From the NCBI RefSeq assembly GCF_030551875.1, contig NZ_JAUOZU010000017.1, forward strand, positions 62,001 to 126,000: a stretch of DNA of 64,000 nt. The letters run 5' to 3'. Position 1 is the stretch's first letter. Each line of letters opens with the position of its first letter. The notes below the pieces were generated by a model. That model was not told where the DNA came from and ran no database searches. It was given only the letters and a program-made list of their open reading frames with translations. Below are positions 49,416 to 64,000 of this stretch, in pieces. The position numbers and the translations under genes were made by a program. This stretch comes from Fluviirhizobium alvei (GTDB lineage Bacteria; Pseudomonadota; Alphaproteobacteria; Rhizobiales; Rhizobiaceae).

Positions 49416-50441
49416 ATGCCCCCTGTCGTCCGCCTCCTTGCGAAGCGGCTTGGGACCTCTCTGATCGTTCTGATCGGGGTATCCCTGCTGATATTCGCCA
49501 TTGCCCGGGTCATTCCCGGCGATCCGGCCCGCATCGCGCTCGGACCGAACGCCACGGCGGAGGCTGTCGCGGCCCTCAGGGAGCGTCTGCATCTCAACGA
49601 TTCCTTCTTCGCCCAGTATGGCTATTTCATCGCCGATCTCTTCGGCGGCGATCTTGGTATCTCGCTCTATACCAATCGTCCGGTGATGGACGATATCGCC
49701 CAGTTCCTGCCGGCAACGCTGGAGCTGGTGATCGTGTCCGGCATCATGATGGTTCTGTTCGGCCTGCCGCTCGGCGTGCTTTCGGCCCGCTATCGCGGCA
49801 CCTGGATCGATCATGGCGTCCGCCTCATCACCCTTCTCGGCGTTTCGGCTCCCGGCTTTGTCTGGGCGGTCATCCTGATGCTCGTCTTTGCCTTCTTCCT
49901 GCCGATCTTCCCGATCGCCGGCCGCATTGCCGACAGCTATTCCATCCCTTCCGTCAGCGGTTTCCTGCTCATCGATACGCTTCTGGCCGGTAACATGGCC
50001 GCCTTTGTCGATGCGCTGCGCCATCTCATCCTGCCGGCCTTTGCGCTCGCGCTTTCGGGCATCGGCCAGGCGGCGCGGCTCGTGCGCTCCAACATGGTCG
50101 AGACCTACGACAAGCCCTATATCGAGATGGCGGAAGCCTATGGCTATCCGGCGCGCCGTATCGCCTGGCGCTATGCCTTCCGGCCGTCGCTCATTCCATC
50201 GCTCACCATCATCGGGCTCGATTTCGCCGCCATGCTCGGCAATGCCTTCCTGGTGGAAGCCGTCTATGCCTGGCCGGGCCTGTCGCGCTACGGCGTTGCG
50301 GTGATCCTGCGCAAGGATCTCAACGCCATCGTCGGCACGGTGCTGATCATTTCCGCCATGTTCCTGCTGGTCAACCTGATCGTCGATCTGCTCGTCTCGG
50401 TCATCAACCCGCGCATCCGCCTGTCGCAGAGGGCGTCATGA
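49416..50441 (+). CDS. Dipeptide-type ABC transporter permease (DppB-like)
   Basis: A 341-residue permease of the DppB/OppB type, with an N-terminal helix, a periplasmic loop (RIALGPNATAEAVAALRERL) and five further helices. The EAA loop (ETYDKPYIEMAEAYGYPARRI, about residues 229-249; core AEAYGYPARRI) precedes the conserved GNAFLVEAVYAWPGL segment. It overlaps DppC by 4 bases. It forms the channel with DppC. Confidence 0.92.
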   Translation: MPPVVRLLAKRLGTSLIVLIGVSLLIFAIARVIPGDPARIALGPNATAEAVAALRERLHLNDSFFAQYGYFIADLFGGDLGISLYTNRPVMDDIAQFLPATLELVIVSGIMMVLFGLPLGVLSARYRGTWIDHGVRLITLLGVSAPGFVWAVILMLVFAFFLPIFPIAGRIADSYSIPSVSGFLLIDTLLAGNMAAFVDALRHLILPAFALALSGIGQAARLVRSNMVETYDKPYIEMAEAYGYPARRIAWRYAFRPSLIPSLTIIGLDFAAMLGNAFLVEAVYAWPGLSRYGVAVILRKDLNAIVGTVLIISAMFLLVNLIVDLLVSVINPRIRLSQRAS

Positions 50442-51271
50442 AGAAAACGCTTCTCATCCTGACCCGCAATCCGCTGTCGCTGATCGGCCTCATCCTCGTG
50501 GCGATCGTGGTCCTGTCGGCCATCTTCGCCGACCTGATCACGCCCTTCCCCGAACATGCCGGCGCCGTGGTCGATTTCGCCAATTTCAACAAGGCGCCGG
50601 AATGGCCCTATCTGTTCGGCACCGATCTTGTCGGCCGCGATCTCTTCACGCGCGTCATCTATGCCTACCGGATCTCGCTGATCCTTGGCATCGTCGTCTT
50701 GGTGATTGCGGTTCCGATCGGCGTGGCGATCGGGCTGGCCGCCGGCTATCTCGGCGGCTGGACCGAATTCGTGCTGATGCGGATCACCGATGTGTTCCTG
50801 TCGATCCCGCCGCTCGTGCTCGCGATGTCGATGATGGGCCTGCTCGAACCGACGCTGACCAACGGCATGATCGCGGTCACCGCCATGTGGTGGCCCTGGT
50901 ACACGCGTCTCGTCTACAACATCGCCCGCTCCGAGAAGGAAGAGGGCTATGTGCTGGCCGCCGAAGTGATCGGTGCCTCGCGCCTGCACATCATGTTCCG
51001 TGAGATCCTGCCCAACTGCGTGCCCTCGATCATCACCAAGATGACGCTCGATTTCGGCTTCGTCATCCTCATTGCCTCTTCGCTTTCCTTCCTCGGCCTT
51101 GGTGTACAGCCGCCGACGCCCGATCTCGGTTCGATGGTCGCCGAAGGCGCCAAATATCTGCCCGACAGCTGGTGGCTGACCGTGTTTCCGGGCCTCGCCA
51201 TTCTGATTGCCGTCTTCGGCTTCAACCTGATCGGCGATGCGCTGCGGGAAATCCTGGGGGTCGACCAATGA
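50438..51271 (+). CDS. Dipeptide-type ABC transporter permease (DppC-like)
   Basis: A 277-residue permease. GTDLVGRDLFTRVIYAYR (about residues 63-80) is the DppC signature and the EAA loop is VIGASRLHIMFREILPN (about 176-192), followed by SLSFLGLGVQPPTPDLG. It overlaps the DppB and DppD-like genes by 4 bases each. Confidence 0.92.
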   Translation: MKKTLLILTRNPLSLIGLILVAIVVLSAIFADLITPFPEHAGAVVDFANFNKAPEWPYLFGTDLVGRDLFTRVIYAYRISLILGIVVLVIAVPIGVAIGLAAGYLGGWTEFVLMRITDVFLSIPPLVLAMSMMGLLEPTLTNGMIAVTAMWWPWYTRLVYNIARSEKEEGYVLAAEVIGASRLHIMFREILPNCVPSIITKMTLDFGFVILIASSLSFLGLGVQPPTPDLGSMVAEGAKYLPDSWWLTVFPGLAILIAVFGFNLIGDALREILGVDQ

Positions 51272-52158
51272 GCGCACCGACACTTCGCATCGATAATCTG
51301 AGGCTCGGCTTCAAGACCTGGTCAGGCATGGTGGAGGTACTGCATGGCATTGCCCTCCATATCCGCCCCGGCGAACGGGTGGCGCTGGTCGGCGAAAGCG
51401 GTTCCGGCAAGTCGGTCACTGCCCGCATCGTGCTCGGGCTCTTGCAATCGATCCGCACTGCCCGCATCGACGGCACCGTCGAGTTCGAAGGCATCAATCT
51501 GCAATCGCTGAAGCCGAAATCACGCCATGCGCTGCGCGGAACGCGGATGTCGATGATCTTTCAGGATCCGACCTCGTCGCTCAATCCGGTCTATACGATC
51601 TTTGACCAGTTCCGCGAGGTGCTGGCGCGTGCCGATGCGGCAATCACCGCCGAACAGGCGCGCGAAAAAGCGATCGTGGCGCTGGCCGATGTGGCGATTT
51701 CCGAACCCGAGCGGGTGCTCGATTCCTATGCTTTCCAGCTGTCAGGCGGCATGAACCAGCGCGTGATGATCGCCATGGCGCTTGCCAACAATCCCGCCCT
51801 GCTTCTGGCCGACGAGCCGGGCACGGCGCTCGATGTGACCGTGCAGGCGCAGACCCTGAAACTGATGAGCGAGCTTGTTGAAAAGCACCGGACCTCGGTT
51901 CTGTTCATCTCGCACAATCTCGGCGTGGTGCGCGAGTTCGCCGATCGGGTCTATGTCATCTACAAGGGCAACATCGTCGAGCAGGGGCCGACGGCCGCAC
52001 TCTTCGACAATCCGCTCCATCCCTATACGAAGGCCCTGCTTTCGGCGGTGCCGCGCATCACCGGCGGCGGCATCCCCGATCTCGATGAGGACATGGCTGC
52101 CTTCCGCGCGCCGCTGGTCGCCCATCCCGGCTATTCCGAACGGGAGCTTCTGGCATGA
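51268..52158 (+). CDS. Dipeptide-type ABC transporter ATP-binding protein (DppD-like)
   Basis: A 296-residue ABC ATPase. Walker A GESGSGKSVTAR (about residues 40-51), signature LSGGMNQRVMIAMAL, Walker B LLLADEPGTALD and H-loop FISHNLGVV are present, with the C-terminal peptide-transporter extension (NPLHPYTKALLSAVP). It is about 30 residues shorter than E. coli DppD and lacks an iron-sulphur-type Cys cluster. It pairs with the DppF-like ATPase. The ATG at 51268 overlaps the DppC stop. Confidence 0.9.
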   Translation: MSAPTLRIDNLRLGFKTWSGMVEVLHGIALHIRPGERVALVGESGSGKSVTARIVLGLLQSIRTARIDGTVEFEGINLQSLKPKSRHALRGTRMSMIFQDPTSSLNPVYTIFDQFREVLARADAAITAEQAREKAIVALADVAISEPERVLDSYAFQLSGGMNQRVMIAMALANNPALLLADEPGTALDVTVQAQTLKLMSELVEKHRTSVLFISHNLGVVREFADRVYVIYKGNIVEQGPTAALFDNPLHPYTKALLSAVPRITGGGIPDLDEDMAAFRAPLVAHPGYSERELLA

Positions 52159-52967
52159 GCACGCTTCTTTCCGTCTCAAACGTTTCCAAGAGTTTCGAGG
52201 TCAATGGCCGCCGCGTGCAGGCGCTCGACAACGTTTCCTTCGATGTCGAAAAGGGCGAGTGCCTGGCGATCGTTGGCGAAAGCGGTTCCGGCAAATCGAC
52301 CATCGCCAACATCATTCTCGGAATCTATGGCGCCAGCGAAGGTCAATTGCGGTTCAAGGATGAGCCGCTGCCGGCCAAGCGGGTGCTGAAGCATCGCCAG
52401 GCGATCCAGCTCGTGCAGCAGAACCCGCTCTCCTCGCTCAATCCTCGTCGTTCGATCGGCGCCTCGCTTCGCCTCGCGCTCGATGTCCACAAGATCGGCG
52501 AGCCGTCCGGCCGGGTGAAGAGGACGGGCGAACTGCTCGAAGAGGTCGGGCTGCCGGCGGAATTCCGGACGCGCAATCCCTCGGCGCTGTCCGGTGGTCA
52601 GCGCCAGCGCGTGGCGATTGCCCGCGCGCTGGCCTGCCAGTCCGAACTCGTGGTGCTCGACGAGCCGACCTCGGCGCTCGATGTTCTGGTGCAGGCGCGG
52701 GTGCTGCGTCTTCTCAAGGACCTCAAGGACAGCCGCGGCCTCACCTACATCTTCATCACGCATGATCTCAGCGTCGTGCGCAACATCGCCGACCGGGTGG
52801 CCGTTTTCGAAAAGGGTCGTCTGGTCGAACTCGGCTCGACGGAGGCGATCTTCGCCTCGCCGCAACACGAATACACACGCAGATTGATCGCCGCCGTGCC
52901 CGTCGTGGGCCGGGATGAGGCGGAGTTGCGTGCGCGCATCATGGAGGATCGCAATGCAAATGCCTGA
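52155..52967 (+). CDS. Dipeptide-type ABC transporter ATP-binding protein (DppF-like)
   Basis: A 270-residue ABC ATPase. Walker A GESGSGKSTIANII (about 40-53), Q-loop QLVQQNPLSSLNPR, signature [15 protein letters not shown], Walker B LVVLDEPTSALD and H-loop FITHDLSVV are complete. It ends short of the usual DppF length, with EYTRRLIAAVP near the end. The GAF gene starts 14 bases before its stop, so the next gene is translationally coupled. Confidence 0.9.
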   Translation: MSTLLSVSNVSKSFEVNGRRVQALDNVSFDVEKGECLAIVGESGSGKSTIANIILGIYGASEGQLRFKDEPLPAKRVLKHRQAIQLVQQNPLSSLNPRRSIGASLRLALDVHKIGEPSGRVKRTGELLEEVGLPAEFRTRNPSALSGGQRQRVAIARALACQSELVVLDEPTSALDVLVQARVLRLLKDLKDSRGLTYIFITHDLSVVRNIADRVAVFEKGRLVELGSTEAIFASPQHEYTRRLIAAVPVVGRDEAELRARIMEDRNANA

Positions 52968-53460
52968 TTTCCGGACATTCGTCGAGGCTGTCGCCGAGGC
53001 GGATGGCCAGCCGCAGAAAGCCTTCGCCGCACTGGAAGCGCTCGTTCGCGACCATGTCGGCGTCAAGCTCTTCACCATCATGACCTCCGACACGGTCAAT
53101 CGTATTTCCGAGCGGATCTATTCCAACATGCCGGAGGCCTATCCGGTCTCCGGAACCAAGCCCTATAACGAGTCGCGCTGGTCGGAGATCACGCTCAACC
53201 AGAAGCGCACCTTCGTCGCCAACACGATCGAGGATATCGCGACCGTTTTCGATGATCACCCGCTGATCCTGTCGCTCGGCTGCCAAAGCGTCATCAATGT
53301 GCCGATCATTGCCGATGGCCGTGTCATCGGCACGCTCAACTGCCTGCATGAGAGAGATTTCTACACCGCCGACCGCGTCGAGGCTGCCGAGGCACTGAAA
53401 CTGCCCGGTCTCGTCTGCATGCTGCTTCACGACAAGTTCAAGGGGGACGACCGAGCATGA
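52954..53460 (+). CDS. Stand-alone GAF-domain protein B
   Basis: A 168-residue single GAF domain, paralogue of the protein at 36859. Shared parts are the LFTIMTSD strand, RIYSNMPEAYPVSG, FVANTIEDI, VINVPIIADGRVIGTLN and a closing helix. Inside the GAF fold no output domain is visible. It is embedded between the transporter ATPase and hyuA, with GGAGG six bases before its ATG and a 4-base overlap with hyuA, so it is likely made with HyuA and may bind or modulate the Hyu enzyme or sense its substrate. The function is unknown. Confidence 0.8.
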   Translation: MQMPDFRTFVEAVAEADGQPQKAFAALEALVRDHVGVKLFTIMTSDTVNRISERIYSNMPEAYPVSGTKPYNESRWSEITLNQKRTFVANTIEDIATVFDDHPLILSLGCQSVINVPIIADGRVIGTLNCLHERDFYTADRVEAAEALKLPGLVCMLLHDKFKGDDRA

Positions 53461-55532
53461 GCTCCAAGACAATCCGCGTGGCCACCGATGTCGGCGGCAC
53501 CTTCACCGACCTCGTCTGCTTCGAAACCGATCTGGCGACCGGCGTGTCGAAGATCATCACCGCCAAGTCGGACACGACGCCGCCGAACTTCGAACAGGGC
53601 GTGCTCAACGTTCTCGAAAAGGGTGGCGTCGATCCCAAATCGGTCGATTTCCTTGCCCATGGCACCACGGTCGTCATCAACGCGCTGACCGAACGCAAGG
53701 GCGTCAAGGTCGGTCTCATCACCACCGAAGGCTTCCGCGATACGCTCGAAATCGCCCGCGGCAACCGGCCCGACTTCTTCAACCTGCATTATCGCAAGCC
53801 CGAACCCTTCGTTCCGCGCTATCTGCGCCGCGAAGTCCCCGGCCGCATGAACTATCATGGCGAGGAAATGGCGCCGCTCGACCTTTCGGGCCTGCCGGCG
53901 ATCGTCGCCGATTACAAGGCGGACGGGGTTGAGGCGATCGCGATTTCGTTTCTGCATTCCTATGCCAATCCGGCGCACGAACAGGCTGCACTCGCTGAAG
54001 TCCATCGCCTGTGGCCCGAAGTGTCGGTGGTGTCCTCCCACCAGATCACCCGCGAATGGCGTGAATATGAGCGCACCAACACGGCGGTGCTCTCGGCCTA
54101 TGTGCAGCCGGCTGCCGAGCGCTATCTCTCGCGGCTTGCCGGCGGCCTCGGCGAACGCGGCTTTTCCAAGAGCCTCTACATCATGCAGTCCAACTGCGGC
54201 GTGGATTCGCTGGAATCGGTCAAGCGCATTCCGATCACCATGGTCGAAAGCGGTCCGGCTTCCGGCTTCTGGGGCGCGGCCGAACTCGGCAAGCTGATCG
54301 GCGAGCCGAATGTGCTGGCGCTCGATATCGGCGGCACCACGGCGAAATGCTCGCTGATCGAGGATGGCCAGATCAAGATCATGACCGATTACTGGATCGA
54401 GCGCGACCGCACATCGGCCGGCTATCCGATCATGGTTCCGGTGGTCGATCTCGTCGAGATAGGCAATGGTGGCGGTTCGATCGCCTGGGTCGATGATTTC
54501 GGCAAATTGCATGTCGGTCCGCAATCGGCCGGCGCCAAGCCGGGCCCGGCCGCCTATGGTCGCGGCGGCACCAATGCGACTACCACCGATGCCAATCTCT
54601 GGCTTGGCCGCATCAACCGCGATTACTTCTGCGGTGGCGATGTGGTGGCCGATATGGCCGCGACCGAAAAGGCGCTTGAAGCCGTCGGTGCAAAGCTCGG
54701 CGTGTCGACCGATGAGGCTGCGCGCGGCATCATCCGCATTGCCAACAACAACATGGTCAATGCGCTGAAGCTCGTTTCGCTCAATCGCGGCCATGATCCG
54801 CGCGAGTTCACCCTCGTCGCTTTCGGCGGCGGCGGCGCCATGCATGCTGCGGCACTCGGGGCCGAACTCGGCGTCAAGAAGGTGGTGATCCCGGCTGGCG
54901 CTTCGGTCTTCTCGGCCTGGGGCATGATGATGAGCGACCTGCGTCGCGACTATTTCGTCACCAAGCTCGCCGACCTCAAGCCCGGTGCCGGTGCCGTGAT
55001 CGAAAGCCTGTTTGCCGAAACCGAAGCGCTGGCGCTCAAGCAGTTCGGCGAGGAAGGCATTGACGCGAGCAAGGTCAAGTTCCTGCGTTACGGCAAGTTC
55101 CGCTACCAGAACCAGGAACATACGACCGAGGTGCTGATTGCCGACGTTCCGGTGACCGATGCCAAACTCAGCGAGATCGAGGCGGCGTTCCACGAAGCCT
55201 ACGAAAAGGAATATACCTACCGGCTCGATGCGCCGGTCGAGATGGTCGGCATGCATCTGGTCGCATCGGCCGAAGTCGGCAAGCTGACCATGCAGGAAAA
55301 GCCGCTCGGTTCAAACGATGCCAGCCCGGCGATCAAGGGCAAGCGCGATGTCGACTATGCGCTCGAAGGCGTCCATGCAGCCGATATCTACGACGGCACG
55401 AAGCTCGAACCCGGCATGCAGTTCAAGGGTCCGGCGGTGATCGAGGATCCGGGCACCACGGTGGTCATCCATCCGGGCAGCGCGGTTGCAATCGACGGCT
55501 ACAACAACATTCACATCACGCTTGCAGGCTGA
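53457..55532 (+). CDS. hyuA: Hydantoinase/oxoprolinase subunit A (second module)
   Basis: A 691-residue HyuA. Motifs: ATDVGGTFTDLVCFE at the N-terminus, HGTTVVINALTERKG (about residue 65), LDIGGTTAKCSLI (about 289) and VEIGNGGGSIAWVDDFG. It also carries WREYERTNTAVL, a family landmark. It is distinctly diverged from the HyuA at 39408, with conserved spacing, so the two enzymes likely differ in substrate. It overlaps GAF protein B by 4 bases and is followed 10 bases later by HyuB. Confidence 0.88.
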   Translation: MSSKTIRVATDVGGTFTDLVCFETDLATGVSKIITAKSDTTPPNFEQGVLNVLEKGGVDPKSVDFLAHGTTVVINALTERKGVKVGLITTEGFRDTLEIARGNRPDFFNLHYRKPEPFVPRYLRREVPGRMNYHGEEMAPLDLSGLPAIVADYKADGVEAIAISFLHSYANPAHEQAALAEVHRLWPEVSVVSSHQITREWREYERTNTAVLSAYVQPAAERYLSRLAGGLGERGFSKSLYIMQSNCGVDSLESVKRIPITMVESGPASGFWGAAELGKLIGEPNVLALDIGGTTAKCSLIEDGQIKIMTDYWIERDRTSAGYPIMVPVVDLVEIGNGGGSIAWVDDFGKLHVGPQSAGAKPGPAAYGRGGTNATTTDANLWLGRINRDYFCGGDVVADMAATEKALEAVGAKLGVSTDEAARGIIRIANNNMVNALKLVSLNRGHDPREFTLVAFGGGGAMHAAALGAELGVKKVVIPAGASVFSAWGMMMSDLRRDYFVTKLADLKPGAGAVIESLFAETEALALKQFGEEGIDASKVKFLRYGKFRYQNQEHTTEVLIADVPVTDAKLSEIEAAFHEAYEKEYTYRLDAPVEMVGMHLVASAEVGKLTMQEKPLGSNDASPAIKGKRDVDYALEGVHAADIYDGTKLEPGMQFKGPAVIEDPGTTVVIHPGSAVAIDGYNNIHITLAG

Positions 55533-55542
55533 GGAGAGATCC

Positions 55543-57207
55543 ATGACTGAGATTGCAGACGATCCGATCACGCTCGAAATCATCCAGGCCTCGCTGCAGG
55601 CGACGGCGGACGAAATGTTCGCGGTTTTCAAGAAGACGGCGATGAGCTCGATCATCTACGAAGTGCTCGACATGGGCACCGGCATTACCGACGGCAAAGG
55701 CGCGCTCGCCTCCTCCGGCGCCGGCATTCCCGCCTTCATCGGCGTGCTCGACAAGGCGGTGAAGGTCATCGTCGACAAGTTCGACAAGCCGGGCGATATC
55801 GAACCCGGCGATGTGTTTGCCACCAACGACCCCTATTACGGTGGCGTGACCCATCTCAACGACATCGTCATCGCCATGCCGGTGTTTGCCGATGGCCGCA
55901 TCATCGCCTGGACGGCCAATATCGCCCATAATTCCGATGTCGGCGGCATGGCGCCGGGTTCGCTCACCGGCCTTGCCACGGAAATCTTCCAGGAAGGGCT
56001 CCGGCTGCCGGCAATCAAGATCATCTCGAAGGGCGAGCCGATCCGCTCGGTCATGGAGATCATCAAGGTCAATTCGCGCATGCCGGACGTGCTCGAGGGC
56101 GATGTCTGGGCGGCGATCGCCTCGGCCCGCATCGGCGCCCGCCGGCTGGTGGAAATCGCCGGCAAATACGGCGTTGCGACCTTCGAACGGGCGATGACGA
56201 AGTTCCTCGATTACGGCGAGCAGGTTTCGCTGCGCGAGCTGGCGAAACTGCCGAAAGGCACGTTCGAACTCTCCGAAGAGCAGGATGACGGCCGCATCTT
56301 CAACGTCAAGATCCGCATCACCGATACCGAATTCGAGGTCGATCTGCGCGACAATCCGGACCAGTCGAACAATCCGGTCAATACAAGCCGCGACGGCGTG
56401 ATGGTTTCGGCCCAGATGATTTTCAAGTCGCTGACCGATCCCTATTCGCCGGCCAACGAAGGGTCGTTCCGGCCGATCAAGCTCCTGACGCGCGAAGGTT
56501 CGGTCTTCCATGCCAAGGAGCCGGCGCCGATCGGCTTCTATTACGAGATCGAACTCCGGGTTTATGACATCATGTGGCGTTGCCTCGCCCCGCATATGCC
56601 CGATCGACTGGCCGCGGGCCATTTCGCTTCCGTTTGCGGCACCTTCATCGGCGGCACCCATCCCGATACCGGTCGCCAGTACACGATCATCGAACCGCAG
56701 ATCGGCGGCTGGGGCGCGAGCCGCCAGGGCGATGGCAATTCGGCAATCTTCTGCGGCTTCCATGGCGAGACCTACAATTGCCCGGCCGAGATCAACGAGG
56801 CACGCAACGGGCTGATCGTCGACCGTATGGAACTCAACATGGAACCGGGTGGCGAAGGCAGGCATACCGGCGGCCGCGGCATCGTGATGGATTACCGCAT
56901 CCGGGCCGACAATTCGTTCCTCACGGCCGGCTATACCCGCTCGAAGTTCCCGCCATGGGCCGTGGATGGTGCCCGCGAAGGCTCGCCGAACTATGTCAAG
57001 GTGATCCGGACCGATGGCAGCGAGGAGGATTACGCCTTCGTCTCCGGTCTTACGGTCAATGCGGGCGACGTGATCCGTGTTATCACCGCCAATGGTGGCG
57101 GTCTCGGCGATCCCAAGGACCGCGATCCGGAACTCGTTCATCGCGATATCCGCAACGGCCTGATTTCCGCCGAGCGTGCCGCCGAGATCTACGGCGTCGG
57201 CGCCTGA
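55543..57207 (+). CDS. hyuB: Hydantoinase/oxoprolinase subunit B (second module)
   Basis: A 554-residue HyuB. Motifs: SSIIYEVLDMGTGITDG (about residue 39), GDVFATNDPYYGGVTHLNDIV (about 90; core TNDPYYGGVTH) and VITANGGGLGDPKDRDPE near the end. The start ATG has GAGAGA upstream. It works with the HyuA above. The M24 gene follows after an 86-base gap that includes a hairpin. Confidence 0.88.
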   Translation: MTEIADDPITLEIIQASLQATADEMFAVFKKTAMSSIIYEVLDMGTGITDGKGALASSGAGIPAFIGVLDKAVKVIVDKFDKPGDIEPGDVFATNDPYYGGVTHLNDIVIAMPVFADGRIIAWTANIAHNSDVGGMAPGSLTGLATEIFQEGLRLPAIKIISKGEPIRSVMEIIKVNSRMPDVLEGDVWAAIASARIGARRLVEIAGKYGVATFERAMTKFLDYGEQVSLRELAKLPKGTFELSEEQDDGRIFNVKIRITDTEFEVDLRDNPDQSNNPVNTSRDGVMVSAQMIFKSLTDPYSPANEGSFRPIKLLTREGSVFHAKEPAPIGFYYEIELRVYDIMWRCLAPHMPDRLAAGHFASVCGTFIGGTHPDTGRQYTIIEPQIGGWGASRQGDGNSAIFCGFHGETYNCPAEINEARNGLIVDRMELNMEPGGEGRHTGGRGIVMDYRIRADNSFLTAGYTRSKFPPWAVDGAREGSPNYVKVIRTDGSEEDYAFVSGLTVNAGDVIRVITANGGGLGDPKDRDPELVHRDIRNGLISAERAAEIYGVGA

Positions 57208-57231
57208 TCCATCCTTCCTCCCCGGAGCGAT

Positions 57232-57251
57232 CCCCACCCATCCGGGTGGGG
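57232..57251 (+). terminator. Hairpin between second hyuB and M24 peptidase genes
   Basis: CCCCACCC (57232-57239) pairs with GGGTGGGG (57244-57251) around ATCC. No clear T-run follows, so partial termination or mRNA processing is more likely than full termination. Confidence 0.5.
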
Positions 57252-57293
57252 GTCGTTCAAGTTTTGCGAGCCCATTTTTCGAGGAATTCACCG

Positions 57294-58397
57294 ATGTCCG
57301 AACAGACCGAACGCCGTCTCAAATCCCTGCGCGAACGCATGAAATCGACAGGAACAGGTCTGGTGGCGATTGCACCCGGCTCGCATATGGACTGGGTGCT
57401 CGGCTTTCATCCGCATCCGGACGAACGTCCCTGCCTGTTGCTGATCGGTCCCGAAAAGGAGGCCTTTCTGATGCCGGCGCTCAATGCCGAGGGAACGCGC
57501 GAATTCACAGATATCGCCTTCTTCAACTGGTCGGATGCCGAAGGGCCAGCCAGGGCGCTATCTGAAGCGCTTTCCGCCATCGACGCGACGGCGCCGGGTC
57601 TGGTGGCGCTCGACGAAACCATGCGCGCCGATTTCGCGCTGCTGCTTCTCGATGCGCTGCCTGGGGATACGCGACGCAGCTTTACACCCGAGACGCTCGG
57701 CGGCCTGCGCATGCGCAAGGATGCGGCGGAATATCAGAAACTCAAGATGAATGCGGCGATCGCCGACCGTGCCATGCAGGCCGCCTTTGCCGGTATCAAG
57801 CCGGGCATGACCGAAAACCAGGTCGCCGATATCATAAAGGGTCATTTCTCTTCGGAAGGGGCGCAACCACAATTCTGGATCGTCGGCGCGGGTGGCAATG
57901 GGGCGTTCCCGCATCATTCGGCGAGCGAGCGGGTGATCGAGGAGGGGGATGCGATCGTCATCGATATTGGCGGCCGCAAGCAGGGCTTCCCCTCCGACAT
58001 CACCCGCATGGCCGTTGTCGGCATGCCACCCGAAGGCTATGGCGAAATCCATACGATCGTCGATAAGGCCGTGCAGGCGGCGCTCAAGGCAGCGCGGCCC
58101 GGCGTGCCGGCTCATGTGGTCGATGATGCGGCACGTGGCGTCATCACCGACGCTGGCTATGGAGAGTACTTCGTCCATCGCACCGGTCATGGCTTGGGGA
58201 TCGATATCCATGAGCCACCCTATATTACCGCGACATCCGATGTCATCCTCGATGAGGGCATGGTGTTTTCGATCGAGCCCGGGATCTATCTACCCGGCCG
58301 GTTCGGTATCCGGCTTGAGGAGATCGTCATCCTGCGGGCCGATGGACCGGAAATCCTCTCCGGCCTGCCGCGCAACGTTCATATCGTTGCAACCTGA
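57294..58397 (+). CDS. M24-family metallopeptidase, Xaa-Pro dipeptidase type (second module)
   Basis: A 367-residue M24 peptidase. The metal ligands are the Asp of IVIDIGGRK and FPSDITRM, the His of TGHGLGIDIHE and the Glu residues of FSIEPGIY and RLEEIVIL. A creatinase-type N-domain precedes it. It is a paralogue of the enzyme at 45710 and holds the same place after HyuAB. The GAGGAA before its ATG is good. It ends the second module. Confidence 0.85.
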   Translation: MSEQTERRLKSLRERMKSTGTGLVAIAPGSHMDWVLGFHPHPDERPCLLLIGPEKEAFLMPALNAEGTREFTDIAFFNWSDAEGPARALSEALSAIDATAPGLVALDETMRADFALLLLDALPGDTRRSFTPETLGGLRMRKDAAEYQKLKMNAAIADRAMQAAFAGIKPGMTENQVADIIKGHFSSEGAQPQFWIVGAGGNGAFPHHSASERVIEEGDAIVIDIGGRKQGFPSDITRMAVVGMPPEGYGEIHTIVDKAVQAALKAARPGVPAHVVDDAARGVITDAGYGEYFVHRTGHGLGIDIHEPPYITATSDVILDEGMVFSIEPGIYLPGRFGIRLEEIVILRADGPEILSGLPRNVHIVAT

Positions 58398-58523: not shown

Positions 58524-59252
58524 ATGAAGCAATATGGAAGCCGGGTCCTAGAATCGTTAGGCCCGGAGATGGGTGGGGCCATGCACGGGATCATCGTACT
58601 GGATCGAGACGAACTCGATGTGTTTCTCGATGAGTATCCCGCGGCAAAACTGCCCGAGGGGATCGAAGCAATCACGCTGGTTTTTGATGAGCATTCCGCG
58701 CTCGGAAAGATCGTTGAAGGCCGGGCCTGCGATGTTCCGTCGGCGGCCGCGACGCCCTTTGCCCGCATCGATGCCCAGACCGCTCTTCTGTTCGGGCGTT
58801 ACCTTGCGGGCCTGCGGCGGAGCGCCAAGCCGAGCACAGGATCGGCTCCGGTTGGGGGAGCTGCTTTGCCGGATCACGGTCCGGAACATCTGATCAAGGA
58901 AATCCTGTTTGCCTATTTCAAGGCGAACCCATCGGCATTGTCGATTTCAACGGCCGGCTTCAATACATCCCGTTACATCGCGGTGAACCGGGCCTATCTT
59001 GATCTTGTCGGCGACGACTGGGACAATCTCGAGCAGCAGGAAATGGTGTCGACCGAGCATGTCGTCGATGACGAAGGCCGTCTCCGGCGCCTCGAGCGAC
59101 TGATTCAGGCCGGCAGCTATGTCGGTGAGAAGGCAAATGTCCGGCATCTGTCGGGCGAGGTCGTTCCCGTGCGGCTTTCCGCCTGCCGTGTCTTTGCAAT
59201 CGACCAGCTCTATGATGTCGAGCTTCTCGAACCGCTCGCCGACCCTGAGTGA
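58524..59252 (+). CDS. PAS-domain protein upstream of the P450 regulator
   Basis: A 242-residue protein. Its C-terminal third (about residues 135-232) looks like a PAS sensor: STAGFNTSRYIAVNRAYLDLVGDDWDNL, then a helix and HLSGEVVPVRLSACRVF. The N-terminal part (1-85) is not recognised. It has no DNA-binding or kinase domain. The start is uncertain: the ATG at 58524 lacks a ribosome-binding site; ATGs at 58569 and 58581 are alternatives. It lies 94 bases before the MEDS/BTAD regulator, so it may supply a signal to it. Confidence 0.6.
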   Translation: MKQYGSRVLESLGPEMGGAMHGIIVLDRDELDVFLDEYPAAKLPEGIEAITLVFDEHSALGKIVEGRACDVPSAAATPFARIDAQTALLFGRYLAGLRRSAKPSTGSAPVGGAALPDHGPEHLIKEILFAYFKANPSALSISTAGFNTSRYIAVNRAYLDLVGDDWDNLEQQEMVSTEHVVDDEGRLRRLERLIQAGSYVGEKANVRHLSGEVVPVRLSACRVFAIDQLYDVELLEPLADPE

Positions 59253-59346
59253 AATGCATCTTTGTTGCTGTTGACCGGGCCGCCGTTCAGCACCATCTTC
59301 GGCTTCAAGTAGTTCCGCTTGATTGAACCACGGGTGGGAGAGGGTC

Positions 59347-60852
59347 TTGGCTGACGGTCGTGACCGCAATATTGCGATGTTTTCGGCTGGGCTCGAACGC
59401 CAGGCGAAAGATCTTACGACCGCTATCGGCCATCTTGCCGATGAGCCGGAAATCCTCGCCGTCTCCGATCATTGGCGCCCTATTCGCCGGAAAGGCAGCC
59501 GCGGCAAGGCCGCCGGCCAGCCGTTGCTTTCCTTCCAGGAAGCCGGTTTTCTGGATTCGCCGATTTCCTTCCGCACGGTCTATTCCCGCATTTCCAGCTG
59601 GGTCTCGACCGCAGGCAAAGACAAGAGCGGCCGAACCAAGGTGCTCGTGATCGACATGAGCTGGGCGCTGGCCACCAACTCGGCAACAGCCAATTTCGAG
59701 ACATGGGTGGAGATCGTCGACGTCTTGAGCCGGGAGACCGGGGTGGCCGTTCTATCGCTCTACAATCGCAATCTGATGATCGACGAACAGATGCTGACGG
59801 CGCTCAGGGGGCATCCCCGCATTCTGTCGACTGCTGGCATCCGCGAGAACCCGCATTGGCTGCCGCCGATGCTGCTGACCCGAGGGACCCTGCGCCAGCA
59901 GGTCGATCACTGGCTTACTGCACTTTCCCCCGATCTTGCGCCCGGAAGCGATGGGGCCCAGATTCATGCGGCGGAAGGTGCCGACCCGATGTGGCTTCTC
60001 AGGCGGGCGGCCGAGGAGCCGGCGATTGCCGGGCTTGAGGCCCGTGACCGCTGGAAGATCCGCTGTCTCGGACGATTACGGGTCTATCGCAACAACGGGT
60101 CGCAGATCATCTGGGATACGCCGGGCGGGGCAACGCGCAAGACCAAGACCCTGTTTGCCTATCTTCTGCAGAAGGGGGGCGATGGGGCGAGCGCCGACGA
60201 GCTGGCCGACCTGCTCTGGCCCGAGGCGGCCAGCGCCGAAGCGGCGCGCAACCGGCTCTATCACACGGTGCGCTATCTGCGCGAAGCACTCGGTCAGGGA
60301 GCGGAAAAATCGGGCTCCGGTTATCTGATCCGCGATTCATCGCGTTACGTGCTGGTGCCGCCGGACAAGAGCTGGCTCGACATTTCCACCTTCGAGCAAT
60401 TGTGCCGCCAGTCGACCACCCACATGAATGCCGGGGCGCCGGACGAAGCGATGATCTGTCTTCAGGCTGCCGACCGGCTCTATACCGGCGATCTCTTCGC
60501 CGATATTCCGGCCGAATATGCCGATGACAACGAGCGCGACTGGTGCTGGTCCAAGCGCTACTGGCTCCGGGAAATGTTCTTCAAGGTCCAGCGCAACGCC
60601 GCCTCAATCTATCGCCAGCGGCAGGATTATTCCGCCGCCCTCGCCCACTGCCAGAAGGCGCTTGCGATCGATCCACTCTGCGAGATCGCGCACGAAGAGG
60701 CGATGCGGATTTTCGCGGCCCAGGGCCGACAGGAAGCGATCGACCGCCAGTTCAAACTCTATATCGACTCGCTTTCGCATTTCGACGATCGTCCGAAAAG
60801 TGCAGGACTGAAGGCGACCTATCAGGCGCTGAAGGCGGGAAAGTCGGCCTGA
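59347..60852 (+). CDS. MEDS-like sensor plus winged-helix/BTAD transcriptional regulator
   Basis: A 501-residue regulator with unusual architecture. Residues about 5-190 resemble a MEDS/DcmR sensory domain (NIAMFSAGLERQAKDL, VLVIDMSWAL, VAVLSLYNRNLMIDEQML). After a linker comes an OmpR-like winged helix (about 235-330: LFAYLLQKGGDGASADELAD, LLWPEAASAEAARNRLYHTV) and a bacterial transcriptional activation domain with TPR-like helices to the end, as in SARP regulators. The start is TTG at 59347, six bases after GGGAG; a TTG at 59323 is an alternative with a poor site. It lies directly before the P450, whose promoter contains CTAAAG repeats, and is its probable activator. Confidence 0.75.
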   Translation: MADGRDRNIAMFSAGLERQAKDLTTAIGHLADEPEILAVSDHWRPIRRKGSRGKAAGQPLLSFQEAGFLDSPISFRTVYSRISSWVSTAGKDKSGRTKVLVIDMSWALATNSATANFETWVEIVDVLSRETGVAVLSLYNRNLMIDEQMLTALRGHPRILSTAGIRENPHWLPPMLLTRGTLRQQVDHWLTALSPDLAPGSDGAQIHAAEGADPMWLLRRAAEEPAIAGLEARDRWKIRCLGRLRVYRNNGSQIIWDTPGGATRKTKTLFAYLLQKGGDGASADELADLLWPEAASAEAARNRLYHTVRYLREALGQGAEKSGSGYLIRDSSRYVLVPPDKSWLDISTFEQLCRQSTTHMNAGAPDEAMICLQAADRLYTGDLFADIPAEYADDNERDWCWSKRYWLREMFFKVQRNAASIYRQRQDYSAALAHCQKALAIDPLCEIAHEEAMRIFAAQGRQEAIDRQFKLYIDSLSHFDDRPKSAGLKATYQALKAGKSA

Positions 60853-60967: not shown

Positions 60968-62224
60968 ATGACAGCGACGATGACCGCAGCGCGGACCTGT
61001 CCCTATTCGAATGCATCCGCCGATTTCAACCCTTTCGACCTATCAAACCCGTTCCCGTTCTATGAATGGGCGCGTGCGGAAGCCCCGGTCTTCTATTCGG
61101 AAGAACTCGGCTACTATGTCGTGACCCGCTATGCCGATGTGAAGGCGACGTTCGAGAACTGGCAGGTCTTCGCCTCCGACAATGCCCAGGCGCCGCTGCG
61201 CCCGATGTGCGCGGAAGGCAAGGAAATCATGCGCCAGGGCGGGTTCACCGCCTATTCGGGCCTGTCGGCACGGGTGCCGCCGGATCACACCCGGATCCGC
61301 AAGCTCGCCCAGAGCTGCTTCGGGCCGCGTCGTTTCAAATCGATCGAGCCGAAGATCCGTGAAATCGTTACCCGCGCGATCGATGCTTTCGCCGAGCGTG
61401 GCAAGGCCAATTTCTTTGCCGAATTCGCCTATGACGTGCCGGCATTGGTGCTCTTCAAGCTTGTCGGTATTCCCGACAGCGACGTGCCGAAGGTCAAGCG
61501 CTGGGCCGTCAGCCGCGCGCTTCTGACCTGGGCCGATCTGACCGACGAAGAACAGCTGCCGCATGCCCGCAACATGGTCGAATACTGGAACTACTGCCAG
61601 GATCTCGTGCGCGATCGCTACGACAATCCGGCCGACGACCTGCCGGGCGACCTGGTGCGGTTGAAGCAGGAAGGCGCCGATATCACCAACGAGGAGATTG
61701 CCGGCGTCCTCTATAGCGTGCTTTTCGCAGGCCATGAGACGACGACGACGCTGATGGCCAATGGCGTTCGCGAACTTATGACCCATCGCAAGAACTGGGA
61801 CGCGATGGTGGCCGATCCGTCGCTCATCCCGGGCGCTGTCGATGAAATCCTGCGCTTCACCCCCTCGATCGTCACCTGGCGCCGTCGCGCCACCCAGGAT
61901 ACGGAAATCGGCGGCGTGAAGGTTCCGGCCAACTCGAATGTGCTGGTCATCATGGCATCGGCCAACCGCGACGACACGGTGTTCGATCATCCGAACGATT
62001 TCGACATCCAGCGTGCCAATGCCCGCAATCATCTGTCGTTCGGCTATGGCATCCATTTTTGCCTCGGCCAGCAGCTTGCCAAGCTCGAATTCTCGATCAT
62101 GCTCGAGGAACTGACACGGCGTCTGCCGAACATGCGCCTGTCGCCGGACCAGAAGTTCGAGTTTGTCCGCAACATTTCGTTCCGCGTGCCGACGGCACTG
62201 CATGTGGAGTGGCCGGTCGCTTAA
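60968..62224 (+). CDS. Cytochrome P450
   Basis: A 418-residue soluble bacterial P450. Landmarks are the I-helix AGHETT (254-259), the K-helix EILR (293-296) and the heme loop FGYGIHFCLG with Cys365 as axial ligand. The ATG at 60968 has GGGAGGAAAC upstream. It needs redox partners; none is in the window. It is followed by a split PEP-synthase-like pair, which suggests that its substrate is phosphorylated first or that it makes a phenol for phosphorylation. The family cannot be named without a database. Confidence 0.92.
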   Translation: MTATMTAARTCPYSNASADFNPFDLSNPFPFYEWARAEAPVFYSEELGYYVVTRYADVKATFENWQVFASDNAQAPLRPMCAEGKEIMRQGGFTAYSGLSARVPPDHTRIRKLAQSCFGPRRFKSIEPKIREIVTRAIDAFAERGKANFFAEFAYDVPALVLFKLVGIPDSDVPKVKRWAVSRALLTWADLTDEEQLPHARNMVEYWNYCQDLVRDRYDNPADDLPGDLVRLKQEGADITNEEIAGVLYSVLFAGHETTTTLMANGVRELMTHRKNWDAMVADPSLIPGAVDEILRFTPSIVTWRRRATQDTEIGGVKVPANSNVLVIMASANRDDTVFDHPNDFDIQRANARNHLSFGYGIHFCLGQQLAKLEFSIMLEELTRRLPNMRLSPDQKFEFVRNISFRVPTALHVEWPVA

Positions 62225-62266
62225 GAGGAGGCGACCGACCAAACCGGAAGCGAATTGTATAATAAG

Positions 62267-62292
62267 GGGGTCGGGCAAACGGTACCGACCCC
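62267..62292 (+). promoter_or_regulatory. Hairpin between P450 and ATP-binding subunit genes
   Basis: GGGGTCGG (62267-62274) pairs with CCGACCCC (62285-62292) directly before GGGAGAGAG, the ribosome-binding site of the next gene. It may stabilise the processed mRNA or limit access to that site. A TATAAT lies just upstream at 62258-62263. Confidence 0.45.
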
Positions 62293-62304
62293 GGGAGAGA
62301 GAAA

Positions 62305-63387
62305 ATGTCCACAGCCAACCACAATCACTATATCCTTGCCTTCGACCAGGCCACGGAAGCCGACCATCCTCGCATGGGTGGCAAATGCGCCAGCCTCGCC
62401 CGCATGATTGCAGCCGGCGTTTCGGTGCCTTCGGGATTTGCCGTGCTGACCGATGCCTATGGCGAGTTTCTCGAAACGCCGGGTCTTCGTGATGACCTTG
62501 CCGCCATGATCGCCAGCATCGATGTCGACAATGTCGCTGACGAAGCGCTGAAGGCCGCCGCGATCCGCGAGCGGATCTGCTCGACGCCGCTGCCGGCCCA
62601 TATCGAAACCGCCATCCGCGCTGCCTATCTCGAAATGTCGCCGGACAATGACCTGCCGGTTGCGGTGCGATCCTCGGCAACGGCGGAAGATCTGCCGGAT
62701 GCCTCCTTTGCCGGCCAGCAGGATACCTATCTCTGGGTGACCGGCGCCGATGATGTCGTGACCCAGGTTCGCGCCTGCTGGGCGAGCCTCTTCAACGCGC
62801 GGGCCATTTCCTATCGCGTCAAGAACAAGCTCGGCCAGCTCGATGTGCTGATGAGCGTCGCCGTGCAGAAGATGGTCAACGCCAAGGCCGCGGGTGTTGC
62901 GATGACGCTCGATCCGATCAATGGCGACCGCACCAAGATCGTCATCGACTCCGCCTTCGGTCTCGGTGAGCCGGTGGTTTCCGGTGAAATCACGCCCGAC
63001 AATTTCGTGGTCGAGAAGGTGATGATGCAGGTCACGAAACGCCGCATCGTCGAAAAGGATCATGAGTTGGTTGCAGACCGTGCGCTGCGCAAGACCGTCG
63101 ATCGCGTCATCGAGCCGGAACGCCGCACGCTGCCTTCGCTGACGGATGCCCAGGTGATCGAGGTGGCGCAACTCGCTAAGTCGCTCGAACGCAAAATGGG
63201 CTGCCCGCAGGACGTGGAATGGGCGATCGACGCCGACCTGCCGGACGGCGAAAACCTCGTGGCCCTGCAGAGCCGGCCGGAAACGGTCTGGAGCCAGAAG
63301 AAGGCGCCATCCGCATCCAAGACCTATTCGATGGGCATCGAAGGCGTTCTCGGAACGCTGCTTTCGCCCTTGACGGCCAAGAACTGA
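62305..63387 (+). CDS. PEP-synthase-like ATP-binding subunit (PpsB/CreH-like), stand-alone
   Basis: A 360-residue protein that equals only the N-terminal ATP-grasp (PPDK_N) domain of PEP synthase. Motifs: GGKCASLARMIAAGVSVPSG (about residues 21-40), VRSSATAEDLPDASFAGQQD (about 118-137), a GEPVVSGEITPDN segment and LVALQSRPET near the end. Full-length PEP synthase is about 790 residues, so this is a split subunit. The same size and split occur in phenylphosphate synthase subunit PpsB of Thauera. The next gene encodes the other part. Expected chemistry: ATP-dependent phosphorylation via a phosphohistidine on the partner. Confidence 0.85.
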   Translation: MSTANHNHYILAFDQATEADHPRMGGKCASLARMIAAGVSVPSGFAVLTDAYGEFLETPGLRDDLAAMIASIDVDNVADEALKAAAIRERICSTPLPAHIETAIRAAYLEMSPDNDLPVAVRSSATAEDLPDASFAGQQDTYLWVTGADDVVTQVRACWASLFNARAISYRVKNKLGQLDVLMSVAVQKMVNAKAAGVAMTLDPINGDRTKIVIDSAFGLGEPVVSGEITPDNFVVEKVMMQVTKRRIVEKDHELVADRALRKTVDRVIEPERRTLPSLTDAQVIEVAQLAKSLERKMGCPQDVEWAIDADLPDGENLVALQSRPETVWSQKKAPSASKTYSMGIEGVLGTLLSPLTAKN

Positions 63388-63422
63388 CGACAATTTCACA
63401 CGGTATTCAGGAGGAGAGATCC

Positions 63423-64000
63423 GTGACCAGCCATATGAAATTCCCAAGTCCCTATTCGCTCAAGGCCCCTGAGGGTGCTGAAGGTTGGGAGGACCTTTAC
63501 CCCTATTACCTGCTGTTCAACGACAAGGTCCGCGACAAGGAGGAGGCCAAGTTCTGGTTCTGCGATTCCCAGCATTGGCCAAGCCCGTTCAAGCCGTTCG
63601 ATACCGTCACCGTCGAATTCGCCGTCAAGTGTCTGGGCCAGTACAATACCCGGCACTATCTGATCCCGCCGGCCAACGGCGTCGATTACCGCATCCACAA
63701 TGGCTATTGCTACATGAGCCCGCTGGCGGTCCCGCCCGACCAGATTGCCGGCCGCGTGCCGCATTTCATGGAGCGGGCCGGCCACTATTTCCAGAACTGG
63801 GATGCGCTGCTCGACAACTGGATGAAGAAAGTTCGCGCCAACATCGCGGACATGGAAGCGCTGACATTCGAACCGCTTCCGGATGTGGTGCCGCTCGACT
63901 GGATCAAGGACGGCGTCGGCCTCGACAATACCTACCAGATGATGGAGACCTATGACCGGGCGATCCAGCTTCTCTACAAGACCTGGCAGTATCACTTCGA
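63423..64000 (+). CDS. PEP-utilising enzyme partner subunit (PpsA/CreI-like), partial
   Basis: The gene runs beyond the window; 192 complete codons are seen. It starts with GTG (GGAGGAGAG upstream) 35 bases after the ATP-binding subunit. The visible part is not the PEP-synthase core but matches the N-terminal region of PEP-utilising mobile-domain proteins: YYLLFNDKVRDKEEAKFWF, DSQHWPSPFKPFD, NGYCYMSPLAV, RAGHYFQNWDALLDNW and a conserved KTWQYHF at the end. The swivelling His domain would follow past the edge. It is expected to accept phosphate from the ATP-binding subunit and pass it to the substrate. Confidence 0.78.
   Translation, partial: MTSHMKFPSPYSLKAPEGAEGWEDLYPYYLLFNDKVRDKEEAKFWFCDSQHWPSPFKPFDTVTVEFAVKCLGQYNTRHYLIPPANGVDYRIHNGYCYMSPLAVPPDQIAGRVPHFMERAGHYFQNWDALLDNWMKKVRANIADMEALTFEPLPDVVPLDWIKDGVGLDNTYQMMETYDRAIQLLYKTWQYHF

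Follow-up and report, generated by a model that had tools for sequence, protein, structure and literature searches.

A probable Cre-type operon for 4-alkylphenol catabolism, with two HD-domain genes, in Fluviirhizobium alvei

The window analysed here is a stretch of 64,000 nucleotides of Fluviirhizobium alvei DNA (contig NZ_JAUOZU010000017.1, positions 62,001 to 126,000). It ends inside an operon which, by homology and analogy with characterised systems, very probably encodes a Cre-type pathway for the catabolism of 4-cresol or of a 4-alkylphenol close to it. The assignment draws on gene content, gene order, homology, the conserved histidine in the swivel domain of a two-subunit dikinase, conserved partner genes and genome context, all read directly from the DNA. 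Open reading frames (ORFs) for a cytochrome P450 and an ATP-grasp subunit lie whole in the window; the third gene crosses its end, and the contig extends 14 kb beyond. In the stretch extended past the window end, called L003 (window position 63435 is L003:5435), the gene order is P450-ATP-grasp-swivel-HD1-ALDH-HD2-SDR-ferredoxin-ferredoxin reductase, where ALDH is an aldehyde dehydrogenase, SDR a short-chain dehydrogenase/reductase, and HD1 and HD2 are HD-domain proteins. The operon is tight and runs on one strand, with gaps of at most 115 bp or small overlaps, for 6.3 kb beyond the window end; 577 bp separate the ferredoxin reductase gene from the next gene on the same strand. An earlier note on this DNA had described a P450, then a 360-residue ATP-grasp protein, then a separate protein of the phosphoenolpyruvate (PEP)-utilising mobile-domain class, and the ORFs and matches to PF00067, PF01326 and PF00391 agree with it.

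The P450 (60968..62224, plus strand, 418 residues from the ATG; PF00067, E 3.3e-28) is, on sequence comparison, CreJ-like, and hence CYP288-like, as CreJ is CYP288A2 in a passage of PMC9357085. Its nearest solved chains are 5xjn and 5gwe, both CreJ, at 489 bits, and the next family is CYP116B at 305 bits. Identity is 52% to CreJ 5gwe over 398 residues, and 35% to CYP116B. When the AlphaFold model of the protein (mean predicted local distance difference test score, pLDDT, 85) was searched with Foldseek, 5gwe and 5xjn were again the top matches, under the titles 'cytochrome P450 CREJ' and 'CREJ in complex with (4-ethylphenyl) dihydrogen phosphate'. Related loci for comparison came from scanning named genomes, in which 119 relatives were confirmed and the best 80 retained (20 alphaproteobacterial, 13 Bacteroidota and 47 actinobacterial). 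Two of these, L026 and L027, are the ends of one contig with identical swivel rows and probably represent one locus; likewise, the Kaistia locus L025 is apparently the same as L010. In 79 Cre-type P450 rows (F. alvei, CreJ and 77 loci), 43 positions carry the F. alvei residue in at least 97% of the filled rows, with the same residue in CreJ and a different one in CYP116B. Arg102, Arg109, Lys177, Arg183 and His199 are among them. A docking passage on 5GWE residues in PMC10879549 was left unused, because the residue numbers in it disagree with the chain.

The association of the P450 with the dikinase pair exceeds chance, because the two adjoin each other in 77 of the 80 related loci. Three loci lack the P450: L026 and L089, both truncated by a contig end, and L094, with 10 kb on each side. 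A tblastn search with the F. alvei P450 at E 1e-15 detected no P450 near eight more distant pairs (L011-L014, L108-L111), over the 18-20 kb surrounding each. L094, from Streptomyces sp. NRRL WC-3618, features a Cre-clade pair on a long branch and an HD2-like gene, with no P450 match within 10 kb; this pair has perhaps been reassigned to another function.

The two genes following the P450 look like a phenol dikinase, as judged from their sequences. The first (62305..63387, plus strand, 360 residues) would be the ATP-grasp subunit, of CreI type, in a two-component aryl dikinase, and matches PF01326 (PPDK_N) at residues 23-342 with 359.6 bits. Its best solved relative is 9goj (269 bits), identified in an extract of PMC12167813 as HpeI of hydroxyphenylethanone kinase; PEP synthase comes second at 262 bits. 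The 188 codons of the swivel gene inside the window have no Pfam match. The full subunit (598 residues; 63435..65231 in extended coordinates, L003:5435-7231, plus strand) is a putative CreH-type substrate-binding/swivel protein, and hosts the PEP-utiliser mobile domain PF00391 at residues 521-592. The histidine-containing swivel domain that the earlier note looked for past the window end is thus in place, with the motif GGMMSHAA and His556 as the catalytic-type histidine. Alignment to PEP synthases is confined to the last ~110 residues, and the Pfam scan of the subunit found no PEP-binding domain. Contig C42 of the same genome has a gene for a separate, 802-residue protein that combines the three domains of a PEP synthase. 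That the nearest homologues are not PEP synthases therefore stands for the swivel subunit; for the ATP-grasp subunit the picture is mixed, HpeI and PEP synthase lying so close in score.

At full length the swivel subunit matches the NCBIfam model NF006150 at 1109 bits (cut-off 650). Ten more proteins were compared with the same model. Scores were 923-1267 for four Cre-locus proteins, 692 and 721 for Azoarcus PpsA and the L006 protein, and 619-685 for three others, while the protein of genome G255 gave no match at the 1e-100 limit; among control genomes, 1 of 14 was over the cut-off. Since non-Cre proteins also score above 650, the cut-off alone does not separate the types. In the swivel tree, built by a quick method on 59 of 91 swivel rows with most actinobacteria thinned and two very distant rows long-branched, the F. 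alvei protein falls within a group of 51 rows, 49 of which have a P450 alongside; the other two are L026, cut by the contig end, and L094, without P450. This group is split from PpsA, R. leguminosarum-type, Thermomicrobium and other rows with a Shimodaira-Hasegawa-like approximate likelihood ratio test (SH-aLRT) value of 95. GGMMSHAA is found in 82 of 83 Cre-locus rows (F. alvei, the 80 loci and two plasmids), versus none of eight other rows. Of the two known systems named beforehand as likely relatives, the Cre system (CreJ with CreHI) is borne out by the nearest P450 and by the P450-linked clade of the swivel subunit, and PpsAB fits less well, as this subunit lies outside the PpsA group.

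In the pathway proposed, ATP would phosphorylate the histidine of the swivel domain and the phosphate would then be passed to the phenol oxygen; CreHI starts the breakdown of 4-cresol by phosphorylation, according to passages of PMC9618137 and PMC12167813. Electrons would move from NAD(P)H to ferredoxin reductase, to ferredoxin and to the P450, which would oxidise the aryl phosphate at its para side chain. SDR and ALDH would convert alcohol to aldehyde and aldehyde to acid. HD1 would remove the phosphate, leaving 4-hydroxybenzoate, and HD2 would probably do likewise. PobA and protocatechuate 3,4-dioxygenase, encoded elsewhere, would channel 4-hydroxybenzoate into the beta-ketoadipate pathway. 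The whole route would lead from toluene (in some carriers) to 4-cresol, its phosphate, 4-carboxyphenyl phosphate, 4-hydroxybenzoate and protocatechuate. We infer each reaction from characterised relatives; the role of HD2, that of the BTAD-type regulator and the exact substrate are conjectural.

The back end of the operon is encoded on the same strand as the P450. HD1 (L003:7299-7901, 200 residues) is followed by ALDH (L003:7914-9356, 480 residues), HD2 (L003:9356-9973, 205 residues), SDR (L003:9970-10731, 253 residues), a [2Fe-2S] ferredoxin (L003:10743-11060, 105 residues; PF00111) and a ferredoxin reductase (L003:11057-12286, 409 residues; PF07992/PF14759). A ferredoxin/reductase pair and a phosphatase had been anticipated past the window end; the pair has been found, as have phosphatase-type genes, in the form of the two HD-domain proteins.

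In a tree of 26 hand-chosen rows, HD1 clusters with the HD proteins found at the creD position of seven actinobacterial clusters, and HD2 forms another clade with two upstream actinobacterial HD proteins; support is 100/100 for both. The invariant His/Asp set is identical in all 26 rows. HD2 occurs in clusters of alphaproteobacteria and Bacteroidota and in some of actinobacteria; by the tree it is a distinct, ancient paralogue of HD1. The actinobacterial order reverses the creC-D-E-F-G-H-I-J table of C. glutamicum, and an HD protein therefore occupies the creD place; CreD itself would be an HD protein, judged from gene position and not from the CreD sequence. The best fold matches of a model of the L016 HD1 orthologue (pLDDT 91) are HD hydrolases, the top one alone among these having E <0.001. 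The idea that the HD proteins are mixed-valent di-iron oxygenases of the PhnZ type was set aside as unlikely, since PhnZ ranks 28th (template modelling score, TM, 0.36), below the HD hydrolases. HD1-like proteins (E 1e-15) are encoded in 3 of 397 genomes of the window's order, always with HD2 and a dikinase pair. Overlapping samples of 385 genomes of the class and 398 of the phylum yielded F. alvei only, and F. alvei plus G255, respectively; the sole matches among 72,556 plasmids were on two Rhodococcus cre plasmids. It is conceivable, and tentatively put forward, that HD1-ALDH-HD2-SDR is a general back end for aryl-phosphate oxidation and dephosphorylation, and that the Cre pathway includes a second, unrecognised HD-enzyme step.

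G255 hosts an HD2-ALDH-HD1 block (L014:2433-10873), whose products are 60, 78 and 67% identical to those of F. alvei. The block is accompanied by a UPF0261 protein, an SDR, a 220-residue protein without Pfam match and a two-subunit dikinase (36% and 25%), and no P450 match was found in the 18.5 kb read. If the back end is indeed general, this block and its very distant dikinase would make up a P450-free phosphorylation pathway for another aromatic.

Neighbouring genes suggest where the pathway begins and ends, pointing to toluene upstream in some carriers and to protocatechuate downstream. The cre cluster adjoins a toluene monooxygenase operon on the two Rhodococcus plasmids (L106 and L107; by typing, one is conjugative and one mobilizable), which possibly carry a transferable toluene-to-4-hydroxybenzoate route. 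A toluene monooxygenase also flanks 9 of the 20 alphaproteobacterial clusters; these nine belong to roughly four lineages (Rhizobium sp. C1 plus AFS isolates, Bradyrhizobium, and two metagenome-assembled genomes). Among solved enzymes, the flank monooxygenase is nearest to toluene/o-xylene monooxygenase (646 bits), followed by toluene 4-monooxygenase (614 bits), and with scores so close the cresol isomer made is not fixed. For the lower end of the pathway, 13 of the 80 loci are flanked by pcaH, 8 of the 13 Bacteroidota loci among them, and 8 of the 80 by a pobA-like gene. L037 has pcaH, pcaG, a pcaB-like gene, a pcaDC fusion and a pobA-like gene together. The F. alvei genome encodes pobA on contig C44 (671.8 bits) and pcaH on contig C4 (361.4 bits), both above cut-off.

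The swivel subunit (E 1e-40) was found in 5 of the 397 genomes of the order, F. alvei included, and the whole operon in identical order in one other of them (G293). Across the named-genome loci two architectures are observed, one actinobacterial, the other shared by alphaproteobacteria and Bacteroidota, though contigs ending inside loci lower some of the counts that follow. In the 33 alphaproteobacterial and Bacteroidota loci, a BTAD gene was found in 25 (16 of 20 and 9 of 13, respectively), the ALDH type of F. alvei in 30, HD2 in 28, an IclR gene in one, and the CreC-type ALDH, meaning one most like the ALDH of L106, in none. Among the 47 actinobacterial loci, by contrast, 41 have IclR, 45 the CreC-type ALDH, one the F. 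alvei type, 14 HD2, and none BTAD; their order is J-I-H-SDR-Fdx-FdR-HD-ALDH (Fdx, ferredoxin; FdR, ferredoxin reductase), with neighbours swapped in a few loci. The openly readable literature matches listed contain no cre cluster outside actinobacteria; earlier notice is possible, as PMC9618137 mentions kinase trees in a supplement.

Several observations weigh against a Cre-type operon for 4-cresol or a close analogue. PEP synthase is the best NCBIfam model for the ATP-grasp subunit, although the score, 358.9, is below the cut-off of 598, and NF006150 itself is named 'hypothetical protein' by NCBIfam. A serine preceding the swivel histidine is given for CreH and PpsA in a passage of PMC12167813; as a criterion it was dropped, because the R. 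leguminosarum row also has Ser and L006, of the PpsA group, has Cys. The ALDH is not of the CreC type, and is 36-40% identical to the actinobacterial ALDHs. No toluene monooxygenase was found in the flanks of the 13 Bacteroidota and 47 actinobacterial scan loci, and most loci are flanked by no pca or pobA gene. The order of the Cre steps after phosphorylation is the one reportedly given by Du in 2016, and C. glutamicum was compared through the CreJ chain, a published gene table and clusters from actinobacteria. The P450, moreover, is only 52% identical to CreJ, so that another 4-alkylphenol is possible. The same chemistry might then be directed at a different para-substituted phenol, such as 4-ethylphenol or a methoxylated alkylphenol, with the P450 oxidising that ester. 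This level of identity allows a shifted pocket, and CreJ was crystallised with 4-ethylphenyl phosphate. A search of the F. alvei genome, run without positive control, gave no match to a toluene monooxygenase that could make cresol, which would consequently come from outside. Such a substrate nevertheless seems rather unlikely, as close relatives keep toluene monooxygenase beside the cluster (Rhizobium sp. C1, 89% identical in the swivel subunit), pca and pobA-like neighbours elsewhere point to a cresol-to-4-hydroxybenzoate route, and the F. alvei P450 shares with CreJ the 43 near-invariant positions at which CYP116B differs.

Readings that change the chemistry fare worse. If the pair were a phenylphosphate synthase PpsAB feeding a carboxylase, the P450 would be a chance neighbour. 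PpsA-group subunits are indeed 48% identical over full length, but the genes read in L003 include no carboxylase, and in Azoarcus KH32C the pair is accompanied by ppcB, ppcD, ppcA and ppcG; the constancy of the P450 near close relatives, its absence from the surroundings searched of distant pairs and the position of the swivel subunit in the tree make this highly improbable. We give very little credit to a hydroxyphenylethanone (Hpe/Acv) kinase acting on acetovanillone-like compounds, a reading favoured by HpeI being the closest solved protein to the ATP-grasp subunit: neither a biotin-dependent carboxylase nor a HAD phosphatase is among the genes read in L003, and the R. leguminosarum pair, which has a biotin carboxylase and a phosphatase, sits elsewhere in the tree. 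The domain names PPDK_N and PEP-utilisers, together with the second-best solved relative and the sub-cut-off NCBIfam model of the ATP-grasp subunit, would suit a split, pyruvate-active PEP synthase next to an unrelated P450. This is hardly credible for a 598-residue subunit that resembles PEP synthase in the swivel part alone, in a genome which has a separate three-domain protein of the PEP synthase type.

Immediately upstream of the P450 is a BTAD-type gene (59323..60852, plus strand; PF03704), whose product is, from sequence, the likely operon regulator. The earlier note had spoken of a MEDS/BTAD regulator and of a PAS protein. The BTAD part holds and the MEDS part finds no Pfam match; the supposed PAS protein, the ORF at 58524-59252, has no Pfam match of any kind and no match in the flanks of related loci. 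Further upstream, positions 49416-58397 host a peptide-type ATP-binding cassette (ABC) transporter, a GAF protein, hydantoinase A and B and an M24 peptidase. All these genes and the 58524-59252 ORF were rejected as operon parts, as were the downstream saccharopine-dehydrogenase-like, GATase1-like, amidohydrolase and GMC genes. The search for flanking genes in the 80 loci plus L010 gave, for the rejected genes, a single GMC match besides weak matches from two of the ABC ATPases (22-38% identity); the BTAD gene is retained as a part. The genes at 49416-58397 are not kept beside the cluster in relatives, and are therefore probably a separate catabolic unit. A transposase-type ORF with an rve integrase core (L003:19266-19994) is located at the contig end, ~7 kb beyond the operon. 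The guanine plus cytosine content is even over the region (0.60-0.64), and thus gives no sign of recent import.

Aerobic breakdown of aromatics via phosphate esters is known from few pathways. The P450-linked version now appears in three phyla and in two clean architectures, tied to toluene oxidation in some carriers. A likely function can be offered for proteins whose present names are 'hypothetical' or 'PEP-utilizing enzyme', and the loci provide new CreJ-like P450s and candidate kinases for selective C-H oxidation of alkylphenols. HD2 is flagged as a second HD enzyme.

Three known systems are comparable. HpeHI of Rhodococcus rhodochrous GD02 is a homologous two-subunit dikinase, and its HpeI (9goj) is nearest to the F. 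alvei ATP-grasp subunit among solved proteins; in the passages of PMC9618137 that describe it, it is tied to a carboxylase of the biotin type and a phosphatase resembling NagD, with no P450. PpsAB of Thauera and Azoarcus is likewise a homologous two-subunit dikinase, but is tied to the ppc carboxylase, has no P450 found nearby and forms a separate clade. The Cre system of Corynebacterium glutamicum has the same gene set as the F. alvei operon, namely dikinase, P450, ferredoxin, ferredoxin reductase, HD protein, SDR and ALDH; an extract of PMC7764795 lists creC as ALDH, creD as phosphohydrolase, creE/F, creG as alcohol dehydrogenase, creH, creI and creJ. The order is J-I-H-G-F-E-D-C in Cre and J-I-H-HD1-ALDH-HD2-SDR-Fdx-FdR in F. 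alvei, where the back end is rearranged, a second HD protein lies inside the operon, the ALDH is different, and the regulator is of the BTAD type instead of the IclR type seen in 41 of 47 actinobacterial Cre-type loci. These features agree with the suggestion, made in the earlier note, of a new variant in a proteobacterium. As gene order was judged non-essential, the F. alvei operon is filed as a Cre variant despite its unmatched order.

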